From IMG/VR virus record IMGVR_UViG_3300009551_000081, positions 1 to 38,463 of that record: a stretch of DNA of 38,463 nucleotides. One strand, 5' to 3'. This stretch comes from a virus. How positions within the stretch are numbered: the first letter of the stretch is position 1; every line of letters begins with the position of its first letter. Under the pieces are notes generated by a model. It was not told where the DNA came from, made no database searches, and saw only the letters and a list, made by a program, of their open reading frames with translations. Position numbers and translations under genes: made by a program. Shown here in pieces: positions 4,484-27,159 of this stretch.

Positions 4484-4510
4484 AAGAAGCCCGCACTGGG
4501 CGGGCTTCTT
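4484..4510 (-). terminator. Rho-independent terminator, leftward
   Basis: A perfect 11-bp stem (AAGAAGCCCGC / GCGGGCTTCTT) with a 5-nt loop. In the leftward direction the stem itself ends in CTTCTT and is followed by TTT. It lies 21 bp past the stop of the Lys/Ala-rich protein gene and isolates it from the next promoter. Confidence 0.8.
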
Positions 4511-4531
4511 AAACGCGTCGGCCGGGTGGTC

Positions 4532-4963
4532 TTAGCCGATGGAAATGTACTCGTGCTCGCTATCCCAGTGCAGGTCGGCGCTGGTGCCGCCCGCTTCCAG
4601 GAACGCGCCGACCGTGGTGCCCTTGCCGTACAGGGCAAAGCGGTCGTAGCTGGCGGAACCTTCGCGCTTCGGGTTCTCGGACACCAGGACCTTCACCTTG
4701 GTCTCCAGCGGCCATGCCGGCGCGCGGCCCTTGCGGCCACCCTCGGCGGCTTCCTTCTTGGCCTTCGGCGCTGCCTTGGCAGCAGCCTTCTTGGTCGCGG
4801 CCTTCTTGGTGGCCGTGCCCTTGCTTACCTTGCTGCCGGTGCTCAGGCTGGCTTTGGCGTTCACAGCCTTCTTGTTGGCGGGCAGGCTGCCCTTCTCGGT
4901 GCCGGTCTTCAGGCCAGCCTTCAGCGTGCCTTCTTCGTTCTTCTGCGCGGTGTTCTTTGCCAT
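4532..4963 (-). CDS. Lys/Ala-rich histone-H1-like protein with compact C-terminal domain
   Basis: 143 residues in two parts. Residues of about 1-80 are low complexity, rich in Lys, Ala, Thr and Ser (TKKAATKKAAAKAAPKAKK), like the tails of bacterial and eukaryotic H1-type DNA-binding proteins. Residues of about 88-143 look folded (KVKVLVSENPKREGSASYDRF, then TVGAFLEAGG and LHWDSEHEYISIG) and recall a small domain seen in other proteobacterial and phage Lys-rich proteins. I infer a nucleic-acid-binding protein that coats or regulates DNA. The ATG at 4963 has GAGGAG upstream. The gene is monocistronic, with its own promoter (5020-5047) and terminator (4484-4510), which suggests high or separately timed expression. 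Confidence 0.65.
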   Translation of the reverse strand: MAKNTAQKNEEGTLKAGLKTGTEKGSLPANKKAVNAKASLSTGSKVSKGTATKKAATKKAAAKAAPKAKKEAAEGGRKGRAPAWPLETKVKVLVSENPKREGSASYDRFALYGKGTTVGAFLEAGGTSADLHWDSEHEYISIG

Positions 4964-5019
4964 GGTAGTGCTCCTCAGTCTTAGGTAGGACCGGCGGAGT
5001 TGCCTGCCCTTGGAAAATC

Positions 5020-5047
5020 AATATACGCAGATTCCAAGAGAATGCAA
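5020..5047 (-). promoter_or_regulatory. Leftward promoter for the histone-like gene
   Basis: TTGCAT (5047-5042) and TATATT (5025-5020) on the minus strand with a 16-bp spacer. The region 4964-5075 has no gene and is AT-richer than its surroundings. The gene it would drive begins about 57 bp downstream. Confidence 0.55.
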
Positions 5048-5075
5048 CCCCTCCTGATAACCTATTTAACTGCCG

Positions 5076-5777
5076 TTAAGGTTGGGACTCAGCAAGAAGC
5101 GTCAGCACCTTCTTGGCGATGTTGATGGCTTCTTCGTGCGTGACGCAGCCGTTGATTGCGATGGTGGTCTCGCGGTCTTCGGTGAGCACGCGTGCGGTGC
5201 GTCCCACCTGCACGGCTGTGCCCTCGTACAGCTTGATCGGGCACGCTTTATCGTACATGTGGCGCAGCGGCACGGGCTGGTCAACCCCATTCGCGCCCTG
5301 GCGCACGTAAGCGCTGATCGCTCCGCCATCTTCAGCCGCGCGCTTCTTGGCGTGGTCCAATTCTTCTTCGTAGAGGCGCATCACCACTTCAAGAAGCGAC
5401 ACCGCATCTTCAAGGTCTTCGGCGTTGGACCAGTGTGTAATCTTGCTGATGAACTCATGCACCAGCGTGCGCTGGCCGGTCATGTCGGTGGCGATGATAT
5501 CGTTGGACTGCACGAACGCCGCAACCTGCATGTCGTACCGCATGCCGGTGAACAGCGGCATGATGCAATCCTGCGCGTAAGATTCTTGCAATTTCTGCAG
5601 ATAGTGCATGGCCTTTTCAAGGTCCTGCATGCCGTTCTTCTTGCGGAACCGCGTGACGTACTTGGTGATACATCCCTCCAGATAGCGGTTGCGCAGGATA
5701 TGCAGCGTGAAATCCCAGTGCTGGATTCCGCCCTTGTAGTGAGTGCCGCCCACTTGCTTCTCGTTAACGCTGTGCAT
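5076..5777 (-). CDS. DUF3310-domain protein, possible nucleotide-metabolism protein
   Basis: 233 residues. The first 60 or so carry the DUF3310 signature: QVGGTHYK at 8-15, then HWDF, the conserved ITKYVTRFRKKNG stretch, and DLEKAMHYLQKL. Phage proteins with this domain are often called nucleotide kinase-like, but the activity is not established. The remaining 170 residues are an extension without a recognised family, containing a helical, acidic middle and a beta-rich end. The start overlaps the HD-phosphohydrolase stop by 14 bp, so it belongs to the same leftward operon as the thymidylate synthase-like gene. That fits a role with nucleotides. Confidence 0.75.
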   Translation of the reverse strand: MHSVNEKQVGGTHYKGGIQHWDFTLHILRNRYLEGCITKYVTRFRKKNGMQDLEKAMHYLQKLQESYAQDCIMPLFTGMRYDMQVAAFVQSNDIIATDMTGQRTLVHEFISKITHWSNAEDLEDAVSLLEVVMRLYEEELDHAKKRAAEDGGAISAYVRQGANGVDQPVPLRHMYDKACPIKLYEGTAVQVGRTARVLTEDRETTIAINGCVTHEEAINIAKKVLTLLAESQP

Positions 5778-6360
5778 TTGCTTGCTCCATTCGTGACCAG
5801 ATACAGCCGGTGATGTGACCCATACGCTCGGTCACAGGATAGAAGATTTCATGTGCCACAGTCGCTTGGAAAATCGGCAGCTGTGATTCCATCTTCTCTT
5901 TGATGTACTTGTAGTACGTGTTCCAGATTACTACTAGCGTTGCATTACCGCGCTCGCGCTCCTCCGTGCAAAACATGAGGCCATCGAACAGGTCTGCCAT
6001 CTTCAACACGAAACGTTCCCATTCACTTAACTCGGTGAACAGCCCATGACTGCGCATGAATTGGTCTTCAGCAGTACGTAGGTCGCTGCTGTTGAACAAG
6101 CGCTTGGCCGGGCTGGGAATGTCGCCGAACATGTACTCGGCAACGTCGTGGTACAGCGCAGCGCGCAACATGTGTGCTGGTGCCCTGCCTTCGTACATCA
6201 AGTCCAGCATGACGGCGACGCCATAACTGTGGCTGGCGACCGTGTCTTCACACAACACCCGATGCGTGTGATACCTGCGCACGCTGCCACCAGCGCGCAC
6301 AGCGTTGAAGCGCGCCACGAACGCGCTGAGCATTTCTGCTTCTAGTTCTTCGCGCTTCAT
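5764..6360 (-). CDS. HD-domain deoxynucleotidase, YfbR-like
   Basis: 198 residues from the ATG at 6360, which overlaps the thyA-like stop (ATGA) and has AAGGA upstream. Signature residues of the HD phosphohydrolase fold are present: H44 in ASHSYGVA, H71-D72 in ALYHDVAEYMFGDIPSPAKR, and D123 in LKMADLFDGL. The GDIPSP motif is typical of the YfbR 5'-deoxynucleotidases, which strip phosphate from dNMPs. Coupled to a thymidylate synthase-like gene, it might remove a normal nucleotide such as dTMP or dCMP so that a modified one is used, as known dTMPases and dCTPases do in phages with altered bases. Family assignment is strong; the substrate is inferred. Confidence 0.85.
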   Translation of the reverse strand: MKREELEAEMLSAFVARFNAVRAGGSVRRYHTHRVLCEDTVASHSYGVAVMLDLMYEGRAPAHMLRAALYHDVAEYMFGDIPSPAKRLFNSSDLRTAEDQFMRSHGLFTELSEWERFVLKMADLFDGLMFCTEERERGNATLVVIWNTYYKYIKEKMESQLPIFQATVAHEIFYPVTERMGHITGCIWSRMEQANAQR

Positions 6361-7376
6361 GCTGAATCCTTCGCTGCCCATGCGCGGGTAAGCCACTCGG
6401 CGCAGGCCGTGCCCCAGTCTGGACATACGACCTGATTGATATAGTGGGCGGCCAAGGAACGGCTACCGTTCTTGTACGAACACCACGCCGCGAACATGGG
6501 CGCCACCACGTCCTGGAACCACACAGTGATGAATGCATCCTGTGTCATGTTCTGGAATTCGCCCGCGTCGAAATAGTCAAAGAACGTTTGCAGGTCAGAA
6601 TCGAACATCTCTATGTGTTCTCTGTGACCCCACAACGGACGCGGCTCAAGTTTCCTATGAACCGCATTGTCACGATAGCTCATTTCTACCAGCTTATCAT
6701 TATCGAATACATCCGTGTATGCGTGCAGATCATTACTGATCTGGTAGTACGTGCCCATTTCAATGCTCACGGCCAGCGCCACATACTCGTGGAGAATGCT
6801 CATGTGCACCATGTTGGCGCCATAGGCTCCCCAGATAGCGTCGTTGCTGCGATTGGAAACAGTCATATCCAGCCTGCCATCTGGCCGAACAATGAAGTAG
6901 ACAGATGTATTGCAGGGTACGTCAGCGCCGCCGTGCTGCACTGCCACGACATCCACTGCTGGGTCTGCCATCGTTACGATGGCGCGACGCGTGTTGTTGT
7001 CCCGCTTCAATTCTTCGATAACAAATTTGATCTGGTCTTCGTCAAAATGCCGGCGCCAGCGATAGCCGTATGCTGCGGGCTGGGTCACAGCATCGTCGCT
7101 GTATTGCGCCATGCGCTTGTTGAAGTACGACACGAACTTGATGTCGTTGCGACCACGAAGCATCCACATCGCCTCCATCAGATGGAAGAATGGGTTGGCG
7201 TTGCGCACGGGGTTGTGCAGCACGCGGCAGCGGGGATTGGTGTACTCGGTGACGACCGGATATGGCAAGCGCAGCACTTGACCATTTCGGCTTGTTGAAT
7301 ACACGCCGTTTTCAAGCATCGTCTTAAGTCCGATGCACAACGCTGCGTCAACATTATCTGCCTGTATGTAGAACAT
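6357..7376 (-). CDS. Thymidylate synthase-fold enzyme (dTMP synthase or dUMP hydroxymethylase)
   Basis: 339 residues with all key positions of the ThyA family: R30 in STSRNG, R130-R131 in NTRRAIV, the nucleophile C155 in VPCNTS, R176 and D179 in NRSNDAIWG, N188 in GANMV, and H218/Y220 in DLHAYTD. The retained Asn, rather than the Asp of dCMP hydroxymethylases, argues for dUMP as substrate. The D-to-N spacing is one residue longer than in E. coli ThyA (DAIWGAYGAN), and the C-terminus lacks the usual ThyA ending. The gene lies next to a base-hypermodification protein and a glycosyltransferase, so making 5-hydroxymethyl-dUMP is a serious alternative to making dTMP. GGAGAAAG precedes the ATG at 7376. 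Confidence 0.88.
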   Translation of the reverse strand: MFYIQADNVDAALCIGLKTMLENGVYSTSRNGQVLRLPYPVVTEYTNPRCRVLHNPVRNANPFFHLMEAMWMLRGRNDIKFVSYFNKRMAQYSDDAVTQPAAYGYRWRRHFDEDQIKFVIEELKRDNNTRRAIVTMADPAVDVVAVQHGGADVPCNTSVYFIVRPDGRLDMTVSNRSNDAIWGAYGANMVHMSILHEYVALAVSIEMGTYYQISNDLHAYTDVFDNDKLVEMSYRDNAVHRKLEPRPLWGHREHIEMFDSDLQTFFDYFDAGEFQNMTQDAFITVWFQDVVAPMFAAWCSYKNGSRSLAAHYINQVVCPDWGTACAEWLTRAWAAKDSA

Positions 7377-7400
7377 ATCTTTCTCCGAATGTTTAGAAGC

Positions 7401-8297
7401 TTAGGTCCCAGGATACGAAGAACGCGGCTTGCCTTGGCCAAGGCGCACGCGTTCATACTTGTCGAACTCGCACAGACAATTCTGAATGTCCTGTGCATGG
7501 ATGAGCGGGTACTGCTGCGGTCGACCCTTGCGCTCGTATTTCTGCAGTTTGTTGTTGGTGGCCGTGCGCAGCAGCAGCAACGCTTCGTGCCACTCGCTTT
7601 CCTTCCACGATGCTGCATAGTCCACGTTCAGCGCACGATTAAGACCGCGCCTGCTGCCCGGTCCACTAACAGCGAACGTGTGCCAGTCGCTGGCTTCGGC
7701 GAGAAACTCGTCGCCATATTTGGCGTCGGCAATAACTTGCCCGGCGATAAAGCCCTGTACGCCATTCAATTGCAACAGTCGATCGCAGAAACTGCGCAAT
7801 GTGGCGTGCTGTTCTGGGCATATGTGCTTGCGCAATTCCCATGCCGGAGTAAGAACTTCCGTAGCGATGTATTGCGCCTTGGGTATTTGCCGACCATTGG
7901 TACTAACGATGTACGCACCGCCCCACGCCTTGGCGCCGTGCCACTGCATCGATTCAATCACCTTTATGAATCGTTGCGCATCCCAATTCCAACCACGACT
8001 GCTGAACTGAAGACGCAACAAAGTATCCGGATGATTGACCAGCCGCGCCACCAACATCCAGAACCATAAATCAGGATTACACAACGCCGCCAGCGGTTCT
8101 CGCCAGTTCTGTGCAATCCACTGCGTGACTATGTCCAATTCGCGATACACATTGCAGAAGCGGTAACGCTGCAGAATGGAATCCTTGGTCCACGGCTTGG
8201 GAGCCAGTCGTGCGCGGGCCAGGAATATGTCGTGGCGAGCCTTGACGAATGCAGTGAAGTCGTCTACTCGCAAATCTCGTGCAGTGAACAGTGTCAT
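7401..8297 (-). CDS. Putative DNA base hypermodification protein (5-hmdU kinase helical-domain family)
   Basis: 298 residues recognised as the phage family known as 'putative DNA base hypermodification protein', the helical module associated with 5-hydroxymethyl-dU DNA kinases and thymine pyrophosphorylases. Diagnostic blocks are RYRFCNVYRELD (44-55), VARLVNHP (83-90), a helix-hairpin-helix-like LNGVQGFIAGQVIADAKY (177-194), GPGSRRGLNR (212-221) and HAQDIQNCLCEFDKYERV (267-284). There is no fused P-loop kinase, so it is a stand-alone copy. The HhH-like segment recalls DNA glycosylases, which fits the idea of acting on bases already in DNA. Its start overlaps the glycosyltransferase stop (ATGA), and it ends 24 bp before the thymidylate synthase-like start. 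Family fairly sure; reaction unknown. Confidence 0.8.
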   Translation of the reverse strand: MTLFTARDLRVDDFTAFVKARHDIFLARARLAPKPWTKDSILQRYRFCNVYRELDIVTQWIAQNWREPLAALCNPDLWFWMLVARLVNHPDTLLRLQFSSRGWNWDAQRFIKVIESMQWHGAKAWGGAYIVSTNGRQIPKAQYIATEVLTPAWELRKHICPEQHATLRSFCDRLLQLNGVQGFIAGQVIADAKYGDEFLAEASDWHTFAVSGPGSRRGLNRALNVDYAASWKESEWHEALLLLRTATNNKLQKYERKGRPQQYPLIHAQDIQNCLCEFDKYERVRLGQGKPRSSYPGT

Positions 8298-9091
8298 TTC
8301 TTTCCCCTGCTGTCATAAGCCTTCTTCCAGGCGATACGCACGTCAGTGCGCACACCGCCGCCCCATGCCGTCTTGGTCGCTTTCTCAACGACCTTGACGA
8401 ACGCTGGGTGCAGCTTCTTAAGACCGTGGGCGCCCGCCGCCTGCATGGCGTTGTCGCGGTAGGTGCTGCACCCGCCAGTAAGACCGCTGCCGGTTTGGTT
8501 CTGCCACCAATCAAGGATGCAGAAATTTTCCTTGCCCAGGCGCAGCAGTTGCAGCGTAACGTCGAAGTCTTCCATCACCGGCAGACGGTTGAACCGCACG
8601 CCCAGTGCAAGCACGTCGCGCGCCCTGTAGCCAAGCACACGCAGCAGCCGCGTGTTGTGCAGCATGGCGTCTTCTGCGAAACGGTTAGCGCCTTCACGCG
8701 CCACGATGCTGCCATGCAGACTATCCCTAAGACAGCCAGCCATGCACTTAAGCATGCGACCGATGTCTTGCTTGGTGGCCGGCGTTGATTTGGTCGGGTC
8801 GTCTGTGCGACGTGTGGAGAACGTAAGATCGTCGTCCATCATGACCATGCGCTGGTCGCTCTCTTCTTTCGCGTGTCGCTCCAGCAACCACTGGCGCACC
8901 TTGCCGATGCCTTTGACGCTGACGGGTGGTATGAGCAACGAGATACCTGGATTGGCTGCGCTGTACGCGTCCAGTTCATCACGGTTTATGACCACCCACA
9001 CGTCCCCACGCTTGAGACCGGGCACGCTTTGCAATTCTTTCCACGTAATCTGCTTGGTCGGACGCCCAAGCGAAGGGATGTAAACTTTCAT
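8294..9091 (-). CDS. GT-A glycosyltransferase resembling TET-associated glycosyltransferases
   Basis: 265 residues. The N-terminus MKVYIPSLGRP is the first strand and loop of a GT-A fold. MVMMDDDLTF puts a metal-binding DxD-type motif at 86-88, and MEDFDVTLQLLRLG at 173-186 supplies the usual downstream acidic positions. The pattern matches phage TET/JBP-associated glycosyltransferase-like proteins, thought to add sugar to hydroxymethylpyrimidines in DNA. No TET/JBP dioxygenase is present; the hydroxymethyl group could instead come from the thymidylate synthase-like enzyme three genes downstream in the same operon. GAGGAG precedes the ATG, and a strong hairpin (9108-9131) lies just upstream. 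The fold is well supported; the DNA substrate is inferred from neighbours. Confidence 0.68.
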   Translation of the reverse strand: MKVYIPSLGRPTKQITWKELQSVPGLKRGDVWVVINRDELDAYSAANPGISLLIPPVSVKGIGKVRQWLLERHAKEESDQRMVMMDDDLTFSTRRTDDPTKSTPATKQDIGRMLKCMAGCLRDSLHGSIVAREGANRFAEDAMLHNTRLLRVLGYRARDVLALGVRFNRLPVMEDFDVTLQLLRLGKENFCILDWWQNQTGSGLTGGCSTYRDNAMQAAGAHGLKKLHPAFVKVVEKATKTAWGGGVRTDVRIAWKKAYDSRGKK

Positions 9092-9107
9092 TGTTCGCTC
9101 CTCAAAT

Positions 9108-9131
9108 GCTGCCCCGATGTACTGGGGCAGC
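9108..9131 (-). promoter_or_regulatory. Hairpin just upstream of the glycosyltransferase ribosome site
   Basis: An 8-bp perfect stem (GCTGCCCC / GGGGCAGC) with an 8-nt loop. In the leftward direction it is followed only by ATTTGAGGAG, so it is a weak terminator at best. It may act as an RNA stability or attenuation element. The same 77-bp spacer contains the 11-bp direct repeat TCAGTGTTACG at 9138-9148 and 9163-9173. Confidence 0.45.
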
Positions 9132-9168
9132 GTGGCTTCAGTGTTACGACTACTCGGTAACGTCAGTG

Positions 9169-9486
9169 TTACGGCTTCTCGATGGCGTCCGAAACCTGCT
9201 TCTCCACGTTTTCCTGGATAGCAGCGTCGGTCTTGGACTGGGTGGCGCTGCCGGTGCGCGGCGTACCGGCCAAGTCGGCCGCTGCGTCAGCGTCAGAAAG
9301 CACCACGCCCGGCGCGGCAACGTCGGCCACGGCGCTGTGCACGCCGGACTTGGCCGCTGCGATGGCGTCGGTGATGGTGTCGTGGTTGCTGGAGTGGAAG
9401 AAGCCCTTGAGCTTTTCCTCCAGCGCCTTGAACTCAGCCTCAACCTTTTCCTTGAGGGCCTCCAACTTGGTTTCAAGCTTGCTCAT
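9169..9486 (-). CDS. Small coiled-coil protein (105 aa)
   Basis: Residues 1-28 form a clear charged heptad helix (KLETKLEALKEKVEAEFKAL and on). The rest is Ala/Ser/Asp-rich with helical and disordered character, ending near VEKQVSDAIEKP. No family is recognised. The start overlaps the SNF2-like helicase stop (ATGA) and has GAGGAAA upstream. The gene lies between the replication genes and the modification genes, so a role as an accessory or scaffold protein is conceivable, but nothing in the sequence fixes it. Confidence 0.6.
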   Translation of the reverse strand: MSKLETKLEALKEKVEAEFKALEEKLKGFFHSSNHDTITDAIAAAKSGVHSAVADVAAPGVVLSDADAAADLAGTPRTGSATQSKTDAAIQENVEKQVSDAIEKP

Positions 9487-11000
9487 TTCGTTTTCCTCTT
9501 TATGACAGGAACCGCCTGACTCGGTTTGCGCTTCTTATGTGCCGCCATGAATTGGTCCTCCACGACGGCTTCCAACCGCTGGGTCTTCTCCTTGCGGTAA
9601 GTGCGCAGCGCATTCAACAAATTGGTCTGCACTGCACCTTTCTTCGCCGTGGCTCGCAATACGGCAAAGTCCACGGTAAGATACCCCACAATCCGGTGAA
9701 CGTACAACCTCTTGAGTTTACTGCCTTGCCGGCGCAGGCGGGCGATCAGCTGGTCGTACAGTTCACGGTCCCAGGTGGGCGTGAACCACACGATACAGTC
9801 AGCTTCGTCGCATCCCTGCATGTTCAGCCCGTGGCCGGCACTGGCCGGGTGCAGCCACAGCACGGGTATCTCACCTGCGTTCCAGTCCGCCACGTGCTTG
9901 TCGGCTAGCTTGCCAGACGTACCGCCGCCAATGACAGGGAACACAGTCTTGAAGTATTTGCATGCCCGTTCGTAATCGTGTTTGAACTCGTAAGCAACGA
10001 TAACGGGCCGACCACCACGCTCTTCAAGAATTGATTCCAGTGCTTCGAGCTTTGCCGTGTGCAGTTCAACATACCTGCCACCTTCGGTGTACGCGGCGCC
10101 ATTGACAATCTGCCTGCACTTGCTGGTAGCTGCTGCCGCGTTGGCAGCGTTGATCTTGGTGTTGGCGTCGATTTCTGCGAACGCTTCCAACTCCATCTTT
10201 TCGTACACCACCATTGCCTTCTCTGGCAGGTACACCACTACATCGTTTTCTATGATGTCTGGCAGGTCAAGATAATCCTCGGCCTGCAAGCGCAGCACGT
10301 ACGGCTTCAGCTGTTTGTAAATCAGCTTATCCGCACCTTCGCGCAGCTTCCAAGTATAGCCGCCAAAACCGGTGGAGTCAAAGTAGCTGTTGCGGTAGTG
10401 CGTGATATACCTGCCAAGCGCCAGACCAAGGTCCACGATATACATCTGGCCGAACAAGTCAAGCAGGCCATTGGGTGCCGGCGTACCGGTGAGAATCCAA
10501 CGGCGCTTGAACTTAGGCAAGAAGCCGCTGAGCAACTTGCTTCGTAGTGATTTCATGTTCTTGAACTTGGTGCTTTCATCAACCACCAGCGTATCCGGCT
10601 TGACCAATTTCCAATTGCTGAGAAACCACTCCAAGCCTTCGGGGTTGACCAAGTAGATATTGACGTCTTTACGTATAGCCTGCTCTTTTTCCGGACCGTG
10701 GCAGACCGCATACGTGAGGTGGTGGAAGTCCGCCCACTTATCGATCTCACGCGGCCATACGCTGTAGCACACGCGCAGAGGCGCCACGATCATTACTTTT
10801 TCCAACATACCTTCACGTAGCAATATCTTGATCGCTGCCAGCGTAATGGCGGTCTTGCCAAGGCCAGGATCAAGGAACAGTGCGGCGCCGCCGTGCTCCA
10901 ACAGCCACTTTACCGCGCGAGTCATGTAACGCAGCGGCTTCCAAGCGAGACTGGACACACGCGATACCTTGCTCTTTGCTATCGCAGACTTCGACGTCAT
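9483..11000 (-). CDS. SNF2-like superfamily 2 DNA helicase/ATPase
   Basis: 505 residues with ordered SF2 motifs: Q/Walker A region LFLDPGLGKT (41-50), Ia APLRV (73-77), Walker B VVDEST (139-144), III TGTPAPN (171-177), V SAGHGLNMQ (387-395) and VI QLIARLRRQGS (417-427). The DES(T) Walker B and the overall arrangement are those of phage SNF2-type ATPases, which translocate on double-stranded DNA in replication or recombination. The basic C-terminal tail (KKRKPSQAVPVIKRKTK) may bind DNA. The first 131 nt overlap the 3' end of the VRR-NUC gene in another frame. GGGAG upstream supports the ATG at 11000. Family very likely; role in the phage cycle inferred. Confidence 0.9.
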   Translation of the reverse strand: MTSKSAIAKSKVSRVSSLAWKPLRYMTRAVKWLLEHGGAALFLDPGLGKTAITLAAIKILLREGMLEKVMIVAPLRVCYSVWPREIDKWADFHHLTYAVCHGPEKEQAIRKDVNIYLVNPEGLEWFLSNWKLVKPDTLVVDESTKFKNMKSLRSKLLSGFLPKFKRRWILTGTPAPNGLLDLFGQMYIVDLGLALGRYITHYRNSYFDSTGFGGYTWKLREGADKLIYKQLKPYVLRLQAEDYLDLPDIIENDVVVYLPEKAMVVYEKMELEAFAEIDANTKINAANAAAATSKCRQIVNGAAYTEGGRYVELHTAKLEALESILEERGGRPVIVAYEFKHDYERACKYFKTVFPVIGGGTSGKLADKHVADWNAGEIPVLWLHPASAGHGLNMQGCDEADCIVWFTPTWDRELYDQLIARLRRQGSKLKRLYVHRIVGYLTVDFAVLRATAKKGAVQTNLLNALRTYRKEKTQRLEAVVEDQFMAAHKKRKPSQAVPVIKRKTK

Positions 11001-11238
11001 AACCTAGCTCCCTCAACTCTTTGATGCGTGCGGCTTGCTTGGGTGTGGGCTCTGCGCCCGGCTTCTTGAATTCAATAAGAAGCGGGCGGCCTCCTGGGAT
11101 AAAGAACATGCGGTCTGGCCAATCTCGCGTGTACGTGGCGGCCATCTTGTACGTGAGCTTGCAACCGTTCTTGTGCGCCCAGTCGCGAGTCGGGTTCTCA
11201 ACGTTTTCCTTCTCCCGAATAATCTTGGTACGCGGCAT
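10870..11238 (-). CDS. VRR-NUC domain nuclease
   Basis: 122 residues. The central region has the VRR-NUC pattern: DRMFFIPGGRPLLIEFKKPG (42-61), then TPKQAARIKELRELGYDVEV. The acidic/Lys set D42, E56 and K58 followed by Q68 corresponds to the PD-(D/E)XK active site of this family. Stand-alone phage VRR-NUC proteins may act as structure-specific endonucleases and commonly neighbour SNF2-type helicases, as here. The 3' third overlaps the helicase start by 131 nt. The C-terminal 30 residues (ALHDSRGKVAVGARRRR) fall in that overlap and look less conserved in style. The ATG shares one base with the upstream stop (TGATG). Confidence 0.85.
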   Translation of the reverse strand: MPRTKIIREKENVENPTRDWAHKNGCKLTYKMAATYTRDWPDRMFFIPGGRPLLIEFKKPGAEPTPKQAARIKELRELGYDVEVCDSKEQGIACVQSRLEAAALHDSRGKVAVGARRRRTVP

Positions 11239-11978
11239 CAGAACTTACACGGCCCTTTGCGCACGATCGTGCCGCCCTTGCCGTCAGGGAACGTTGCGTT
11301 CTTGCTGAACGGGCACCAGCGACAATGGTTGCCCGGTTTAGGCGCAAAGCGTTTGTCGTTGAACATCGGCTTGATGCGTTTCTCCCATTCCTTGATCTCG
11401 CCCGCTGCTTGCTTCTGCGTATAGACCTTGGGGCCTTCAAACGGATGCACGCGGCCGATGTCGCTGAACAGCAGCTGCGTGTTGATCAGCTTGGCAGTGG
11501 GGAATACCACCGTGCCGGCAGCGGCGTACAAGTTCAGCTGCAATTCGTAGCCCGCCACGGCGTAGTCGCTATACTTGCCGGTCTTGCTGTCGTACAGATT
11601 CAACGTCTTGGCGCCGTCGGCCGTGGTCAGGATGTCGATCTTCACACGCAAGAAGCAGCGATTCCAGTCCGTGGGGCTGCACGGTGTCCAGTCCTTGGTG
11701 AAGCCCCAGTTGGCTTCCGCCTGCACGGTCTTGTCTTTCTTGAGCGCCTTGTACACGGGCGCCAGCGGCTTGAGCTCCACCGGCATGGTGCGGCGCATGC
11801 CCTTGAACCATTGGTCTGTGGAGTCTGCCACGTCGGCGCCGCGCTGCATGGCGGGGTTCTTGGGGCCTTGGTCAAGCTTCTGCAGGTGCTTGTACTTGGC
11901 AAAGGCCGGGCAGCGGTCGTAATCACTCCAGCGCGTGAACGACCATGAATCAAACTGTGTCTTGACTCCCCACGACAT
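11238..11978 (-). CDS. Cas4/AddB-like PD-(D/E)XK exonuclease with probable Fe-S cluster
   Basis: 246 residues from the ATG at 11978, one base after the upstream stop and preceded by GAGGAG. The N-terminus (FTRWSDYDRCPAFAKYKH) is typical of RecB-like nucleases. The active-site set is D115 in RVKIDIL, D130-x-K132 in LYDSKTGK, and the QLNLYA helix at 147-152. C23, C219-x2-C222 and C244 are placed as in Cas4/AddB nucleases that hold a 4Fe-4S cluster. Such phage proteins process DNA ends in recombination or replication, and this one neighbours a SNF2-like helicase and a VRR-NUC nuclease. An upstream in-frame extension of 59 residues is rejected because it is the shadow of the preceding gene. Confidence 0.85.
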   Translation of the reverse strand: MSWGVKTQFDSWSFTRWSDYDRCPAFAKYKHLQKLDQGPKNPAMQRGADVADSTDQWFKGMRRTMPVELKPLAPVYKALKKDKTVQAEANWGFTKDWTPCSPTDWNRCFLRVKIDILTTADGAKTLNLYDSKTGKYSDYAVAGYELQLNLYAAAGTVVFPTAKLINTQLLFSDIGRVHPFEGPKVYTQKQAAGEIKEWEKRIKPMFNDKRFAPKPGNHCRWCPFSKNATFPDGKGGTIVRKGPCKF

Positions 11979-11979
11979 A

Positions 11980-12315
11980 TCAATTCTCCTCGGTGGTTTG
12001 CTGCGGTCCGAAATCCTGATACATGCGACCTTGATGCATGCGGAAGCCCGGCGTGATATAAAACTCTGTGCACTCAGTGGCGGGAATGTGCACCACCACT
12101 TGGCCAACCAAGCGCTCTCGCACGCTGCCGCCGCTCTCCTTGACTCGTTGCTCAACCAAGCCTTTGGGCGTGCGCACCAGCTGTACCTTGTAGCGGGTGA
12201 TCACGCCAGTCTCGTCGTCGCAGCGGATGACGTGGCCAAGTTGCTCAACTCCATTGAACCATACCCGTGCCACGCGTTCCTTGCGTGTGTTGGGTCCGAA
12301 TACGTCGAGCTTCAT
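11980..12315 (-). CDS. Hypothetical protein (111 aa) coupled to DNA polymerase
   Basis: A beta-rich small protein with no recognised family; visible segments include KLDVFGPNTRKERVARVWFNG and VGQVVVHIPATECTEFYITPG. It lies between the polymerase and the Cas4-like nuclease with one or two bases between genes, so it is co-transcribed with replication genes. Its stop overlaps the ribosome site of the nuclease gene. A replication accessory role is possible from position alone. Confidence 0.6.
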   Translation of the reverse strand: MKLDVFGPNTRKERVARVWFNGVEQLGHVIRCDDETGVITRYKVQLVRTPKGLVEQRVKESGGSVRERLVGQVVVHIPATECTEFYITPGFRMHQGRMYQDFGPQQTTEEN

Positions 12316-12316
12316 G

Positions 12317-14218
12317 TCAATCCTCGTATTTGATTAGCGCGCCCCAGTTGGGGCCGCACTTTGCATCGGTGAGCATGGGGACGTCAATTTCGATGCCCTC
12401 CATAGATTCGCGCAACGCCGCCATCTCACGCTTGACGCTGCTCTTGGGTGAGCTGATGTTAATTTCGTCGTACACTGTCACCAAGAATCGGCTATCGCGA
12501 CGCGCCTTGTGGTATCTGATGATAGCTTCCTTGGTGAAGTCTGCTGCACTACCTTGAATCAAGTAGTTGAGCAGCTTGTAGATGAAATCAATCAACCTGC
12601 CCTTGATGACCTTCGGGTCTTCCGGATAGTACGTGCGTCCGCCGAAAGTGCGAATGGGCTCGCCGCTGCGCGCCACGGCAGTGATGTCATCTTGCAACTG
12701 CTTGAGTCCGGGCAGCGCGCTAAGCTGTGCACGCTTAATCCGTTTGGCCGTCTCTACGTCCGTATCCATATCGATACTGAGCTTACCAAGGCCCATGCCG
12801 TACAGCAGGCCGAAGTTAACCACCTTGGCTTGCCGACGTTCGATCTTCAGCCCGAGAATTTCCCACACCGCATCCGCTACGAATTGGTGCACGTCCATGC
12901 GCGGCGTTTCGTTATACGCCGCTAGCAGGGTGTTATCCTCAAAATGTGCCAGCAACCGAAGTTCCTGCTGATTGTAATCTCGGTGGCAGAACACTTGTCC
13001 GGGGTCAGGCAGAATGTAGTTGCGCACCTTGGGCAATTCAATCAGCGATTTCATATGCTTTGGATGCGTGTAGCCATCGCCCTTGTCGTACCAGTCCTTG
13101 CTCAGATTCAAGAAGTTAGGGTCGCTGGTGCTTGGGCGCCCGGTGCGCGTGCCGTTGTTGCCGCCGCTGGCGCTGCTTGACTGGCGGACCTGATTCCAGT
13201 TGGTGTGAATGGTGCCGGTGCGGTGGCCAATGCTGTGCCAACGCTCCATGAACATGCTCAGGCACGTGGTCAGGCGGTTACGGTAGCCGAACACCTGGAA
13301 TACGCGTTTATCGTTGAACAAATCCACCGTCAGATTTTTCTTACTGACACTATCTTTCCCAGTCGGGGTCTGCACGAAATCAGTGACCACGCCGGCAGCT
13401 TTCAACGCTTTGGCAAAGTCACTGTCGCTATCAACGTTCAAGCCCGGCGCCTTGAGTTGCTTGCGCAGCCAGTTATCGGCCGTGGTCAAGCACGCTTGAT
13501 ACTTGGGGATGTCGCGCTCAAGTCCCTTGATGTCAACGTGCATGCCGGCGCGTTCGTTATCAAGCAGGATTGGCATAAGCTCACGTTCGCGATTGTACGC
13601 GGCCAGCTGGCCCGAATCTTCAATCAGTGGATACAGGTGACGGAACAGCTTGATGGTGCGCAGTACGTCGCCGTTCGCATACTTACCCACGATGTCACCG
13701 GGCACTTCACAAATATACGCGCCCCACTCGCTTGGCTTGAACGGCGCGTTGTCGTGTTCGATCTGTCGCTTGTGTTCAAGCACCCAGTCACGCACGCGAT
13801 CTTGTTCTTCTGGCGCCATGCCAAGGATGCGTTCCGCTGCCGGCTTCAAACTATAAGACATGGCGTGCGGGTCGTACAGGAAGATCAAGAACATGCTGTC
13901 GTGATACAACTCCCACGGCAAGCGCGGCACGCCGCAGTGCACTTCCGCCACGTCGATATCAAACTTGCCGTTCTGGAATAGCAGGCCGATCTTGTTCTTG
14001 CGCGCGGTATCCCATGCCTTCTTGACCATGGCGTGGCCTTCGCGCTCGGTGCAGTTGTTGCCGGTGGGATGGCCCCAGCCGTAGTACACAGACTTGCGCT
14101 CGCCTGGATACATGATGCTCACACCCACAGGCTTGGGCGGATAATCGGGGCGGCGCTTGATGCCTTTGGTTTCGAAGTCGACGGTGATGACGTCGGGTGT
14201 CTTGCGGGTGCGACCCAT
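12317..14218 (-). CDS. Family A DNA polymerase with 3'-5' exonuclease
   Basis: 633 residues. Exonuclease motifs are intact: D14-x-E16 in TVDFETKG, N83/D87 in FQNGKFD, and Y180/D184 in YANGD. Polymerase motifs follow: A at DYNQQELR (D414), B at RRQAKVVNFGLLYG (K465, F469, Y473), and C at YDE (583-585). Motif C has Tyr where most family members have His, while motif B keeps the Phe that disfavours dideoxynucleotides. NYLIQGSAADF (551-561) is also typical. This is a replicative phage enzyme of the T7-like branch, although no thioredoxin-binding insertion is evident. If phage DNA carries a hypermodified base, this enzyme probably incorporates the hydroxymethyl precursor. GAGGAG precedes the ATG. 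Confidence 0.93.
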   Translation of the reverse strand: MGRTRKTPDVITVDFETKGIKRRPDYPPKPVGVSIMYPGERKSVYYGWGHPTGNNCTEREGHAMVKKAWDTARKNKIGLLFQNGKFDIDVAEVHCGVPRLPWELYHDSMFLIFLYDPHAMSYSLKPAAERILGMAPEEQDRVRDWVLEHKRQIEHDNAPFKPSEWGAYICEVPGDIVGKYANGDVLRTIKLFRHLYPLIEDSGQLAAYNRERELMPILLDNERAGMHVDIKGLERDIPKYQACLTTADNWLRKQLKAPGLNVDSDSDFAKALKAAGVVTDFVQTPTGKDSVSKKNLTVDLFNDKRVFQVFGYRNRLTTCLSMFMERWHSIGHRTGTIHTNWNQVRQSSSASGGNNGTRTGRPSTSDPNFLNLSKDWYDKGDGYTHPKHMKSLIELPKVRNYILPDPGQVFCHRDYNQQELRLLAHFEDNTLLAAYNETPRMDVHQFVADAVWEILGLKIERRQAKVVNFGLLYGMGLGKLSIDMDTDVETAKRIKRAQLSALPGLKQLQDDITAVARSGEPIRTFGGRTYYPEDPKVIKGRLIDFIYKLLNYLIQGSAADFTKEAIIRYHKARRDSRFLVTVYDEINISSPKSSVKREMAALRESMEGIEIDVPMLTDAKCGPNWGALIKYED

Positions 14219-14244
14219 GTTACGCTCCTCGTGAATAGACGTCT

Positions 14245-14445
14245 TTACTTCTTTGCGGCTTTTACCAGTTCCAGCCGTTCACGCTGACAGCGCAGCTTGT
14301 TGTAGGTGCCGTAGATGCGCACCAAGAACTGAGACCTGCCAGCGCCGCCCTTTTCAGCTTCCAGCATGGCAAGCGCCTGCTGTTCGGTGACGCTTTGCAA
14401 TTCTTTGTTCAATGCCCGGTAATTGGCAGGTGATTCCGTAGCCAT
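14245..14445 (-). CDS. Small hypothetical helical protein (66 aa)
   Basis: The start at 14445 is preceded by TGGAGAA. The protein is mostly helical and ends basic (RCQRERLELVKAAKK). No family is recognised. It lies between the polymerase gene and a strong intergenic hairpin, separated from the polymerase start by 26 bp. Confidence 0.55.
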   Translation of the reverse strand: MATESPANYRALNKELQSVTEQQALAMLEAEKGGAGRSQFLVRIYGTYNKLRCQRERLELVKAAKK

Positions 14446-14463
14446 GATGTTCTCCAGGTAATT

Positions 14464-14494
14464 GCGCCGGGTTGGCGGCTAACCAACCCGGCGC
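14464..14494 (-). promoter_or_regulatory. 12-bp perfect hairpin between genes
   Basis: GCGCCGGGTTGG pairs with CCAACCCGGCGC around a 7-nt loop. It lies 19 bp past the 281-aa gene stop and 19 bp before the 66-aa gene start. No T-run follows on the minus strand (AATTACC), so it is not a classic terminator. It could block 3' exonucleases, cause pausing, or act as a processing site that separates expression of the 281-aa gene from the polymerase part. Confidence 0.6.
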
Positions 14495-14512
14495 GGTGGT
14501 GCTGGGAGCCAC

Positions 14513-15358
14513 TCAGCGGCGCTTGGCGCCCGCCGCAGCCTTGGCCCCTACCTTGCTGCCGCGTGCAGGCGGCGCTGCCCTGCCACGGGCGCCACGCGGC
14601 GGCGGGGCCTGCTCCTCGCGGGGCTGGTACGGGGCGAACAACGCCTGCTCGACGGTGTCGCGCTTTTCGATCAGCTCGCCGATGCTGTCGCCGTCGTCGA
14701 TGGTGCCGATAAGCTTGAACATCATCTTGAACTGGGTCTTGGCATCCGGGATCAAGCTGATCTCGGTCACCACGCCCAACGGCGGACGCTTCAGCTGGTC
14801 AGCCAGCGACTTGACGTAGCCAGCCCAGCCCTTGACCGAAGTCACGGGAATCTTGAGCATGGCGACTTCGGCGTTGGCGACGTCTTCCAGGCCGTCCTCA
14901 GTGATCAGTGCAAGTCGCCTGCTGTTCTTGCAAGCCTTGCCACGACCCTGGTCGGCGCTGCCCCATTGGTTGATGTCGCTATCCTTGCAGAGCGTGCCGG
15001 CGTACGGTTCGATGGAGTCTTCGTGCCACGTGAGAGTTTCCTCGTCACGACCCAGCGCAAAGGCATCGGGTGGCTGCGGGTTGTCCGGATCGTACCGGTC
15101 CACGTAGTAAGTGTTCTCCAGGATGTGGTCCAGAATGATGACGTTCATGCGGTTGCCGGGAATGGTATTGCCGTTGAACGAGAGCTGACCACCCTTACAG
15201 CTGATGAACGTGCCGCCGAGACTGACGCTATCTTCCACGCCAGAACTGATCTCGGCCAGCTTGGCCAGCTTCTCATCCCACGCCGCCATGGCGGTGCCGG
15301 GCTTTTTCTTGCCGGCGGGGGCTTTCTTGGTTGCTGCGGTTTTCTTTACGGGTGCCAT
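14513..15358 (-). CDS. DNA-binding-like replication accessory protein (281 aa)
   Basis: Residues 1-22 are a Lys/Ala/Pro tail and the last 50 are an Arg/Pro/Ala-rich low-complexity tail (RGARGRAAPPARG), both suited to nucleic-acid contact. The core (30-230) includes GGTFISCKGGQLSFNG, NVIILDHILENTYYVDRYDP, PYAGTLCKDSDINQWGSADQ and NSRRLALI. It resembles proteins found beside phage polymerases, and a single-stranded DNA-binding role is my best guess. However, the acidic C-terminal tail typical of SSB proteins is absent. AAGGAA precedes the ATG at 15358. Treat the function as tentative. Confidence 0.6.
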   Translation of the reverse strand: MAPVKKTAATKKAPAGKKKPGTAMAAWDEKLAKLAEISSGVEDSVSLGGTFISCKGGQLSFNGNTIPGNRMNVIILDHILENTYYVDRYDPDNPQPPDAFALGRDEETLTWHEDSIEPYAGTLCKDSDINQWGSADQGRGKACKNSRRLALITEDGLEDVANAEVAMLKIPVTSVKGWAGYVKSLADQLKRPPLGVVTEISLIPDAKTQFKMMFKLIGTIDDGDSIGELIEKRDTVEQALFAPYQPREEQAPPPRGARGRAAPPARGSKVGAKAAAGAKRR

Positions 15359-15422
15359 CTTGTGTTCCTTGCTTAGTGACTAGGTTGGGTTCGCCATCTT
15401 AATATCCCGCTCGGCGTAGCGG

Positions 15423-15602
15423 CTAAAACGGTGGCCAGTGGTCGTGGATTATGCCGAACAACGGACCGACATCTTCAGCATCATTGTCGTAGTCGCGTTG
15501 ATCGGTCCACCTACGAACCTTCTGAGCGCCTTCTTGCTTAGCCGTCTTTACGGCCAACTCAGCAAGCTTGCGCTTCTGCTCTTCTGTGAGTTTCTTGACC
15601 AT
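15423..15602 (-). CDS. Small hypothetical protein (59 aa)
   Basis: The frame runs from the ATG at 15602 to a TAG at 15423. The upstream gene ends four bases before and supplies AAGG as a ribosome site. The N-terminal half is a charged helix (KKLTEEQKRKLAELAVKTAKQ); the C-terminal half is acidic then aromatic (GPLFGIIHDHWPPF). No family is recognised. It is supported mainly by tight packing and absence of competing frames. Confidence 0.55.
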   Translation of the reverse strand: MVKKLTEEQKRKLAELAVKTAKQEGAQKVRRWTDQRDYDNDAEDVGPLFGIIHDHWPPF

Positions 15603-15606
15603 GGCA

Positions 15607-16038
15607 CTAGACCTTGGTGCTGCTGACCTTCACAGCCTTGAAGATGGTGATGCCCGGCACCTTCTTCTTCGCATCCAGACGTTCCTGGATAGCAGTCTCG
15701 TTGACGCGACGCTGAAGAAGGTCGAATGCTTTCTCCTTGATGATGTACGCGTAGAACTTGGGCCAGTCGCTGACCTGCGGAATATCCTTGGTCTCGATCC
15801 TGGCCGATGCCACCTGCCCGCTGACGCCTTGCGCGGCGGACTTGGGCAAGTTATTGATCAGATGTTCGCGCAGGAGACCTTCCTGCTTTGCGATTTCATC
15901 CACTTGCTTCTGCAGCGCCAAGCGCTCCAACCGCTTGGTGTACAGCATGTCGGCGGCCTGCGCCAACTTCTTGGGGATTTCAAACTTCTTCGCCTTGGCG
16001 GGGGCTTGGGCCACCGCTTTCTTCGCTACAGCTGCCAT
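15607..16038 (-). CDS. Phage coiled-coil protein of unknown function (143 aa)
   Basis: Begins with an Ala/Lys tail, then a helix with heptad leucines (YTKRLERLALQKQVDEIAKQ) and a globular end (VSDWPKFYAYIIKEKAFDLL, then VPGITIFKAVKVSS). The pattern recalls hypothetical proteins common in replication regions of siphoviruses, but I cannot name the family. GAGGAG precedes the ATG, and a promoter-like element with a palindrome lies directly upstream, so this gene probably starts a transcription unit covering the genes down to the polymerase. Confidence 0.65.
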   Translation of the reverse strand: MAAVAKKAVAQAPAKAKKFEIPKKLAQAADMLYTKRLERLALQKQVDEIAKQEGLLREHLINNLPKSAAQGVSGQVASARIETKDIPQVSDWPKFYAYIIKEKAFDLLQRRVNETAIQERLDAKKKVPGITIFKAVKVSSTKV

Positions 16039-18152: not shown

Positions 18153-18414
18153 TGAGCTTCTCCTGCAGCGCGGCCAGCTGTTCAGGTGCGGCGGCCTGCT
18201 TGGGGCCGTGTTCAAGCCGCCAGTGGTCGCGCATGCCACGCTCGCCGCGTATGCTGGCGCCGCACCGGTAGCAGGCGCGCTTGTCGCTCAGCTGCGTGGC
18301 CTTGCACTTGGCGCAGTCGCGCGGATGGCCGCAGCCTTTACCGTCGCGGTCCACGAATTCGAAACAACTTTGGCATACACGCCCGGCTTCGATGTTCTCT
18401 TCACGTGTGTTCAT
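18145..18414 (-). CDS. Cys/His-rich zinc-binding protein (89 aa)
   Basis: Contains CQSC, GCGHPRDCAKC and CYRCG followed by HWRLEH: eight cysteines and several histidines in about 60 residues, enough for two zinc sites. The last CxxC...HxxxxH part looks like a C2H2 finger. It may bind DNA or RNA. ATGA overlap with the dCMP deaminase gene means coupled translation. Confidence 0.65.
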   Translation of the reverse strand: MNTREENIEAGRVCQSCFEFVDRDGKGCGHPRDCAKCKATQLSDKRACYRCGASIRGERGMRDHWRLEHGPKQAAAPEQLAALQEKLNG

Positions 18415-18995
18415 GTGTTGGGCTCCAAGCCGTCGATCGCGGCCAATGCAGAAATTTCATCCAGGATGGTGACGACGACTCCCGCCTCCGCAAAATATCG
18501 GAGACTCAAATTGCCAAGGCGCTCCCACTCAGCAAGTTTCTTGCTGGCGTTCTCGTTCCACTCCACCTCGCCAGTCTTGGGCGAGCGGTACGGCTCCGGT
18601 GGCTTCACCATCACCACGCGCGTTACGCCGGCCTGTATCAGGTGCACGGCGCAGCGGTCGCACACCATCAACGGCGTGATGTACGCTGTGATACCATGCA
18701 CGAACGCAAGCTGTAGCGTGGCACCAGCGTTCAGCACTGCGTTCATTTCCGCATGCACTGTGCGGCTGAGCTTGCTATCCCTGTCCTGCAGATTCGTATC
18801 GCTTAGCTTTCTCGGCAAGCCGTTGTAGCCAGTTGAGATCACTACGTTCCTGCTCACGAGGACGCAGCCGACTCGCGTGCCGGGGTCCTTGGACCAGCCC
18901 GCCACCTGCTGCGCCAGCAACATGAATCGGTTGTCCCACTTGAGAATGCGCTGCTCCCGCGCTTTCTGTTCCCGGCCTGCACTCGCTATGCTCAT
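18411..18995 (-). CDS. dCMP deaminase
   Basis: 194 residues from the ATG at 18995 (GGAGAT upstream). The zinc-dependent deaminase signature is complete: H81-A-E83 in TVHAEMNAV and PLMVCDRC with C112 and C115. KDPGTRVGCVLV and GYNGLPR are typical of deoxycytidylate deaminases. It converts dCMP to dUMP, the substrate of thymidylate synthase or of dUMP hydroxymethylase, so it probably feeds the enzyme at 6357-7376. The first 221 nt are overlapped by another frame (18775-19227). Regulation by dCTP/dTTP, known in this family, cannot be judged here. Confidence 0.9.
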   Translation of the reverse strand: MSIASAGREQKAREQRILKWDNRFMLLAQQVAGWSKDPGTRVGCVLVSRNVVISTGYNGLPRKLSDTNLQDRDSKLSRTVHAEMNAVLNAGATLQLAFVHGITAYITPLMVCDRCAVHLIQAGVTRVVMVKPPEPYRSPKTGEVEWNENASKKLAEWERLGNLSLRYFAEAGVVVTILDEISALAAIDGLEPNT

Positions 18996-19227
18996 ACGGT
19001 ATCTCCAATTGCCTTGCGACTTGTTTGTGGGCGACACCATCAACGATGACAATGTCAAGTTCTTTTAGCAACAGCCGATAAGCCTTGAGATATCGCTTAT
19101 GGGCGTTTAGACTTCTAATCCCAGGATGACGCTGATCGCTAACCATCTTGTCAAACAGGATTTCCCAGCGCGCGCGGTATTCTTTGGTTTGCGCAGCGCT
19201 CAGCTTTTTAAGCTCTGTTCTCTCCAT
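18775..19227 (-). CDS. Hypothetical protein with unusual C-terminal overlap (150 aa)
   Basis: The first 80 residues look like a real helical protein (RYLKAYRLLLKELDIVIVDG, then AHKQVARQLEIPYEH, which could form a helix-turn-helix). GGGGGAG lies before the ATG. From about residue 80 the frame runs through the start of the dCMP deaminase gene for 221 nt, and the translated tail (Gly/Ala/Arg-rich) has the look of an out-of-frame translation. Either the tail is genuine or an ancestral stop near 18990 was lost. Confidence 0.5.
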   Translation of the reverse strand: MERTELKKLSAAQTKEYRARWEILFDKMVSDQRHPGIRSLNAHKRYLKAYRLLLKELDIVIVDGVAHKQVARQLEIPYEHSECRPGTESAGAAHSQVGQPIHVAGAAGGGLVQGPRHASRLRPREQERSDLNWLQRLAEKAKRYESAGQG

Positions 19228-26686: not shown

Positions 26687-27159
26687 GCGGACCCGCGTTT
26701 AAATCAGGACCATGCTTCAAGCATGGAAGCCACTTCAAGACCACGGTCGCGAAGGATATTTCTGCGATGGTCATCGGTGACCACATTGCATGCGGCAGCA
26801 CGCGTTGCGTGTACGCCCACGCCATGAGCCCCGAAGACACGGTCGTGAAGATCGAAGCTGGCGATGCATTGTTCTGCAACGTCTACGAGCATCAAGTGTG
26901 GGAGCACGTTGAGCAGACTGAGTTTGCCAAGTGGTTCGCGCCTGTGCGCAAGATCAGTCCGTGCGGAACTGTGTTGTTCATGGCGCGTTGCGAGCCGGTG
27001 CACAAGACCGACTTGCCGACCCATGTGCCGGCGTTCTTCACTGACCTGAAGGCGAACAACTTCGGTTGGTACGAAGGCCGAGTGGTATGCATTGACTACG
27101 GCTACCATCGCTTCATTGAACGCGGCATGACCAAGAAGCTGCGGAAGGCGGTTTGGTGA
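26683..27159 (+). CDS. Minimal protein-kinase-fold-like protein between terminase genes
   Basis: 158 residues with a shrunken kinase pattern in the right order: glycine-loop-like GSTRCVY (38-44), VVKIE with Lys56, a Glu at 69 or 74 in YEHQVWEHV, DLKANN (121-126) like the catalytic loop, and IDYG (137-140) in place of DFG. It is about half the size of a normal kinase and lacks most of the C-lobe, so it may be a degenerate or pseudo-kinase. Its placement between TerS and TerL with overlaps on both sides is unusual. Function unknown. Confidence 0.65.
   Translation: MSGPAFKSGPCFKHGSHFKTTVAKDISAMVIGDHIACGSTRCVYAHAMSPEDTVVKIEAGDALFCNVYEHQVWEHVEQTEFAKWFAPVRKISPCGTVLFMARCEPVHKTDLPTHVPAFFTDLKANNFGWYEGRVVCIDYGYHRFIERGMTKKLRKAVW

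Follow-up and report, generated by a model that had tools for sequence, protein, structure and literature searches.

The DNA of Pseudomonas phage M6 carries a base derived from 5-hydroxymethyldeoxyuridine (5-hmdU) (PMC6449724). The M6 genes concerned lie in the order gp51 (aGPT-Pplase2), gp52 (a pyridoxal phosphate, PLP, protein), gp53 (a radical S-adenosylmethionine, SAM, protein), gp54 (a P-loop kinase), gp55 (the helical protein called HEL below), gp58 (ThyA-like), gp59 (HD), gp61 (DUF3310), gp62 (the DNA polymerase PolA) and gp65 (dCMP deaminase); gp52 gave no useful match in the PDB. Here we analyzed a related cassette in the virus record IMGVR_UViG_3300009551_000081. The window, that is the whole stretch analyzed, is a linear record of 38,463 bases (positions 1 to 38,463), which may be incomplete. 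It encodes homologs of HEL, ThyA-like, HD, DUF3310, PolA and dCMP deaminase, arranged almost as they are in the M6 cluster (gp51-gp65). However, M6 has the kinase gp54, aGPT-Pplase2, the PLP and the radical SAM proteins and makes 5-aminoethyl-dU, whereas none of these was seen in the window, which has a glycosyltransferase of the TAGT family instead. By its gene content, the window has that half of the M6 pathway which concerns 5-hmdU, with TAGT replacing the kinase. Among relatives, HEL is paired in different phages with unrelated and interchangeable attaching enzymes, namely a kinase or a glycosyltransferase of either of two kinds. We estimate at roughly 70% the probability that the cassette leads to DNA with thymine partly or wholly replaced by glycosylated 5-hydroxymethyluracil, the sugar being added after replication and HEL acting as the base-handling partner of an interchangeable transferase. 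The genes concerned are:

8294-9091, minus strand: TAGT, a GT-A glycosyltransferase whose predicted substrate is 5-hmdU in DNA (PF20691, E 2.3e-21; PHROG 842, E 5e-43)
7401-8297, minus strand: HEL, a stand-alone helical protein of PF18723, formerly named aGPT-Pplase1 (E 2.1e-40)
6357-7376, minus strand: ThyA-fold enzyme, predicted dUMP hydroxymethylase (Thymidylat_synt PF00303, E 4e-18; PHROG 5131, E 1e-103)
5764-6360, minus strand: YfbR-like HD phosphohydrolase, predicted to clear competing normal nucleotides (PF12917, E 2.4e-12)
5076-5777, minus strand: DUF3310 protein, fifth member of the cassette, with a possible role in nucleotide metabolism (PF11753, E 6.5e-9)
18411-19058, minus strand: dCMP deaminase, predicted to supply dUMP (PF00383, E 2.9e-19; PHROG 174, E 1.4e-35)
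12317-14218, minus strand: PolA, family A DNA polymerase, expected user of the modified triphosphate, given for context (PF00476, E 7e-49)

An earlier note, made from the DNA letters alone, had described four coupled leftward genes here. The four open reading frames lie on the minus strand at the coordinates listed and belong to the families it named, with profile matches from E 2.4e-12 to 2.1e-40. The profile search that had been set beforehand as a refuting check placed 7401-8297 and 8294-9091 inside modification families (PF18723, E 2.1e-40, and PF20691, E 2.3e-21). The coupling is also borne out, by ATGA overlaps at the TAGT/HEL and ThyA/HD junctions and a gap of 24 bases from HEL to ThyA. 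Their number has to be raised: from 9091 to 5076 the minus strand holds five packed genes, DUF3310 overlapping HD by 14 bases, and the dCMP deaminase at 18411-19058, upstream of these genes, is a pathway gene that had been missed. The open reading frame of HD reaches 6426; the start at 6360 was preferred as more likely. As for HEL, the assignment to the 5-hmdU-kinase helical family was correct, and the protein is the old aGPT-Pplase1 (M6 gp55) and not the catalytic kinase. The family is now titled '5-hmdU DNA kinase, helical domain', and several records label the same protein aGPT-Pplase1 (PMC9476957). HEL scores 139.3 bits against PF18723 (HMUDK_hel; cut-off 25) and is about 36% identical to M6 gp55.

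The partners of HEL were then compared across relatives. A HEL profile scan gave 80 viral loci, and the dereplicated set, to which a few deposited phages also belong, comprised 79 HEL loci. A kinase was found in 28 of them, a TAGT in 26, both in none and neither in 25 (Fisher test, 4.8e-7, ignoring kinship). Two loci first classed as having neither carry divergent TAGTs and are counted as TAGT loci. The partner gene is usually adjacent to HEL. Searches of whole records detected no kinase in the TAGT or 'neither' records tested (control, 5e-66), and no TAGT in the kinase records tested. The reciprocal scan, seeded with TAGT, enlarged the TAGT set to 107 loci in 53 clusters at 90%: HEL was present in 48 of these clusters, a ThyA homolog in 51 and a kinase in none. 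On cellular contigs, kinases (eight loci) and TAGTs (three loci) did not co-occur either. In the HEL tree, the window, locus L002 (TAGT) and locus L010 (kinase) form a clade with support of 99/98, and the well-supported branches force at least six partner changes for the kinase and at least seven for TAGT. The gene order of L010 is kinase-HEL-ThyA-HD-DUF3310, as in the window, with the kinase occupying the TAGT slot. The surprising part is that transferases unrelated to the kinase occupy its slot.

A third partner, a family of proteins of 307-382 residues (alignment A5), is found in nine other HEL loci; L021:9051-10004 is an example gene. No Pfam or PHROG match was obtained for the members scanned. 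One member was modeled (pLDDT 79) and showed a GT-B fold, nearest to T4 beta-glucosyltransferase (BGT; Z 18.0 over 293 residues, Foldseek E 3e-8). From this model, the family is likely a new family of DNA glycosyltransferases. In five loci (L016, L017, L019, L020 and L052), radical SAM/SPASM proteins adjoin HEL, sometimes together with another putative transferase, and possibly form a further branch of the chemistry.

The five-gene set of the window is found in L002 with its order kept and 42-59% identity, and the same order is found in dozens of viral contigs. Because the genes recur in conserved order, their association is not due to chance, and the cassette, far from being unique, is widespread. 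No nucleotide-level relative was found when deposited phages were searched with positions 4500-16000. The large terminase (27153-28736) is about 60% identical to those of Pseudomonas, Variovorax and Stenotrophomonas phages of 42 kb, and this likeness hints at a proteobacterial host.

The absence of a P-loop kinase from the window, already claimed in the earlier note, was confirmed. Since PF18748 alone is too insensitive for environmental kinases and missed that of L018, a kinase profile of 23 rows (A6) was built. This profile gave no match anywhere in the record, which may be incomplete, against 5e-66 for the control L010, and the terminase has the sole convincing Walker A motif in the window. 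The 5-hmdU kinase, although assigned by Pfam to PF18748, is labeled 'terminase small subunit' in the records of M6 (gp54, L006:7414-7977) and PaMx11 and in PHROG 800. The profile of aGPT-Pplase2 (M6 gp51), a phosphate-displacing enzyme that acts on the phosphorylated base, also had no match in the window; its 15 matches are confined to kinase loci (15/15). A search of the window for a TET/JBP dioxygenase gave no match, and no positive control responded in it.

The base to be modified is indicated by the ThyA homolog, which is 44% identical to M6 gp58. Its catalytic Cys is kept in 74 of 74 relatives and its uracil-reading Asn in 148 of 148 (larger set). As both residues are kept, 5-hydroxymethyl-dUMP is the likely product. 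Asn188 aligns with the Asn of thymidylate synthase, whereas the CMP hydroxymethylase MilA, nearest relative in the PDB, has an Asp at this position. Therefore, judging from this residue, uracil is much more likely than cytosine to be the substrate base. An Asp at the base-reading position, as in dCMP hydroxymethylases of the T4 gp42 type (Asp179 in T4 gp42), was not found in the ThyA homolog, the automatic alignment with T4 gp42 being off by one column. The kinship with MilA, together with the occurrence of TAGTs in phages with 5-hydroxymethylcytosine (5hmC) (PMC13216743; PMC13390438), could also suggest that the enzyme is a dCMP hydroxymethylase and that TAGT glycosylates 5hmC as in T-even phages. 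We consider this very improbable: the invariant Asn argues against it, as do the orthology of ThyA, HD and DUF3310 to those of thymine-modified M6 and the presence of a dCMP deaminase.

The window TAGT scores 77.1 bits against PF20691 (cut-off 27.5), and its metal-binding DxD-type motif, DDD, is kept in 31 of 31 relatives. It is predicted to glycosylate a hydroxymethyl base in DNA, here 5-hmdU. The window protein resembles the other members of the family, including the T2/T6 beta-glucosyl-HMC-alpha-glucosyltransferase, in its GT-A fold and motif. However, known members act on (glucosylated) 5hmC made by a dCMP hydroxymethylase or TET, whereas the partners here are a dUMP-type ThyA homolog and HEL. 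Two deposited phages have related arrangements. In Brevibacterium phage LuckyBarnes, which is in culture, a ThyA homolog, TAGT and HEL (PF18723, E 5e-68) are adjacent, as in the window, but there are two TAGT genes, the ThyA homolog is longer and no HD was found. Caudoviricetes sp. ctUhy936 (MW202897) shares the order TAGT, pyrimidine hydroxymethylase, HD, DUF3310-type gene, but has no HEL between TAGT and the hydroxymethylase. A partial comparison of the residues by which hydroxymethylases differ from thymidylate synthases leaves some room for a plain thymidylate synthase, unmodified DNA and a TAGT acting on the cell surface or on a protein. This too has a very small probability, given that 48 of 53 TAGT clusters have HEL and 51 of 53 the ThyA homolog, that a different fold resembling DNA glucosyltransferases occupies the same slot, and that the nearby HD and deaminase fit base replacement.

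The HEL model was of high quality (pLDDT 93.6, 65 sequences). Its best PDB match, and thus the closest solved fold, is PaMx11 gp46, the 5-PmdU glycinyltransferase (8z2n; Z 10.9 over 220 residues), followed by a queuine salvage enzyme and by several helix-hairpin-helix (HhH) DNA glycosylases (Z about 10). These Z values are moderate for a helical protein, and helical proteins can match in this range by common arrangement. In Foldseek, E was above 0.05, and a sequence search of the PDB gave no match. In the HEL alignment, used without superposition, no conserved equivalent of the catalytic Lys/Asp of HhH glycosylases was seen near GPG-SRRG. Common descent of HEL and the glycinyltransferase is not claimed, because the profile comparison was weak (probability 2.5%, E 0.018).

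These matches bear on whether HEL may itself be an enzyme, catalyzing a reaction of its own on 5-hmdU in DNA, perhaps a group transfer resembling that of the 5-PmdU glycinyltransferase, with TAGT decorating the HEL product or other 5-hmdU. Besides the structural match, a segment LC-E/K resembling that of the glycinyltransferase, within the weak profile match, and the invariance of the core polar residues in all partner classes and in cellular orphans would agree with such an activity. However, PaMx11 gp46 acts on phosphorylated 5-hmdU, after the kinase, is only about 10% identical to HEL and belongs to a family confined to kinase loci in our survey. In the known pathway, amino-acid transfer requires prior phosphorylation of the base, and the window lacks the kinase. 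Moreover, the conserved residues of HEL are identical across partner classes, and Bacillus phage Goe26 has the kinase and HEL fused into a single polypeptide, an argument for physical association of the two. The fusion and the usually adjacent partner gene are what is expected of a subunit. We therefore find an enzymatic HEL unlikely, and favor HEL as the subunit that presents the DNA base, since the same residues are kept with every partner and Goe26 fuses it to the kinase. A wider proposal, to which we give somewhat less than even odds, is that PF18723 is a general subunit presenting 5-hmdU in DNA rather than a kinase part as such. It would serve O-transferases that can replace one another although their three folds (P-loop kinase, GT-A TAGT and GT-B BGT-like) are unrelated, and phages would change their thymine hypermodification chemistry by swapping one gene.

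In the pathway that we propose for the window, the deaminase would convert dCMP to dUMP, the ThyA homolog would turn dUMP into 5-hydroxymethyl-dUMP, and the HD protein would clear the competing normal nucleotide. A nucleotide kinase of the host, or possibly the DUF3310 protein, would lead to the triphosphate, and the phage PolA would incorporate 5-hmdU into DNA. HEL, with its fold resembling HhH DNA glycosylases, would then bind DNA and flip or recognize 5-hmdU for TAGT, which would use a nucleotide-sugar donor to attach a sugar at the 5-hydroxymethyl group. In M6-type phages, HEL would play the same part for the P-loop 5-hmdU kinase. The HD protein has the residues H66 and H93-D94 (numbering from 6426). 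The DUF3310 protein is orthologous to M6 gp61 (41% over 129 amino acids), and most relatives in the first survey have its gene next to HEL/ThyA. A T7 gp1.7-type kinase activity of DUF3310 is unsupported beyond a shared small domain.

Some observations weigh against the proposed pathway. The match of DUF3310 to T7 gp1.7 is marginal (E 0.06). In the literature covered, the TAGT of known activity puts a second sugar on glucosylated 5hmC and not a first one on 5-hmdU (PMC13216743). TAGT-ThyA cassettes without HEL exist in MW202897, L106, L110 and L116, and TAGT therefore does not depend strictly on HEL. Finally, the core polar residues of HEL do not vary among 51 cellular orphans that have neither ThyA nor kinase nor TAGT in their vicinity, which suggests, at the level of residue conservation, that HEL has an activity of its own.

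Cellular HEL-like proteins (L194-L248) occur in genome bins of Patescibacteria, Alphaproteobacteria and a few archaea, nearly all without cassette genes nearby. Domains of the 5-hmdU kinase and of thymidylate synthase have been reported in validated bacterial defense systems (PMC13092281), and the cellular HEL proteins are possibly linked to them. As regards a defense role in the window itself, the five cassette genes had no match in PADLOC. On viral contigs of 103-463 kb (L014, L026, L033, L036 and L048), HEL was found with no kinase, TAGT or ThyA homolog detected nearby.

Altogether, the comparison with M6 and about 150 relatives upholds the joint modification pathway put forward in the earlier note, with 5-hmdU glycosylation as the most likely outcome. 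Support is good for the enzyme set and for the base; the sugar, the exact role of HEL and all the reactions are what we infer from sequence comparison. The families of the parts and thymine hypermodification are already known; the HEL-glycosyltransferase branch and the exchange of partners of three folds were not found in the available literature, a search outside which the main papers of the field lay.

These results suggest that, alongside the known amino-acid branch of thymine hypermodification, there is a glycosylated one that is widespread. Although the HEL domain takes its name from a kinase, glycosyltransferases are its partners about as often, so that its function can be tested directly. 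One would expect such sugars to protect phage DNA against restriction; the enzymes might also find use in the labeling of 5-hydroxymethyluracil.

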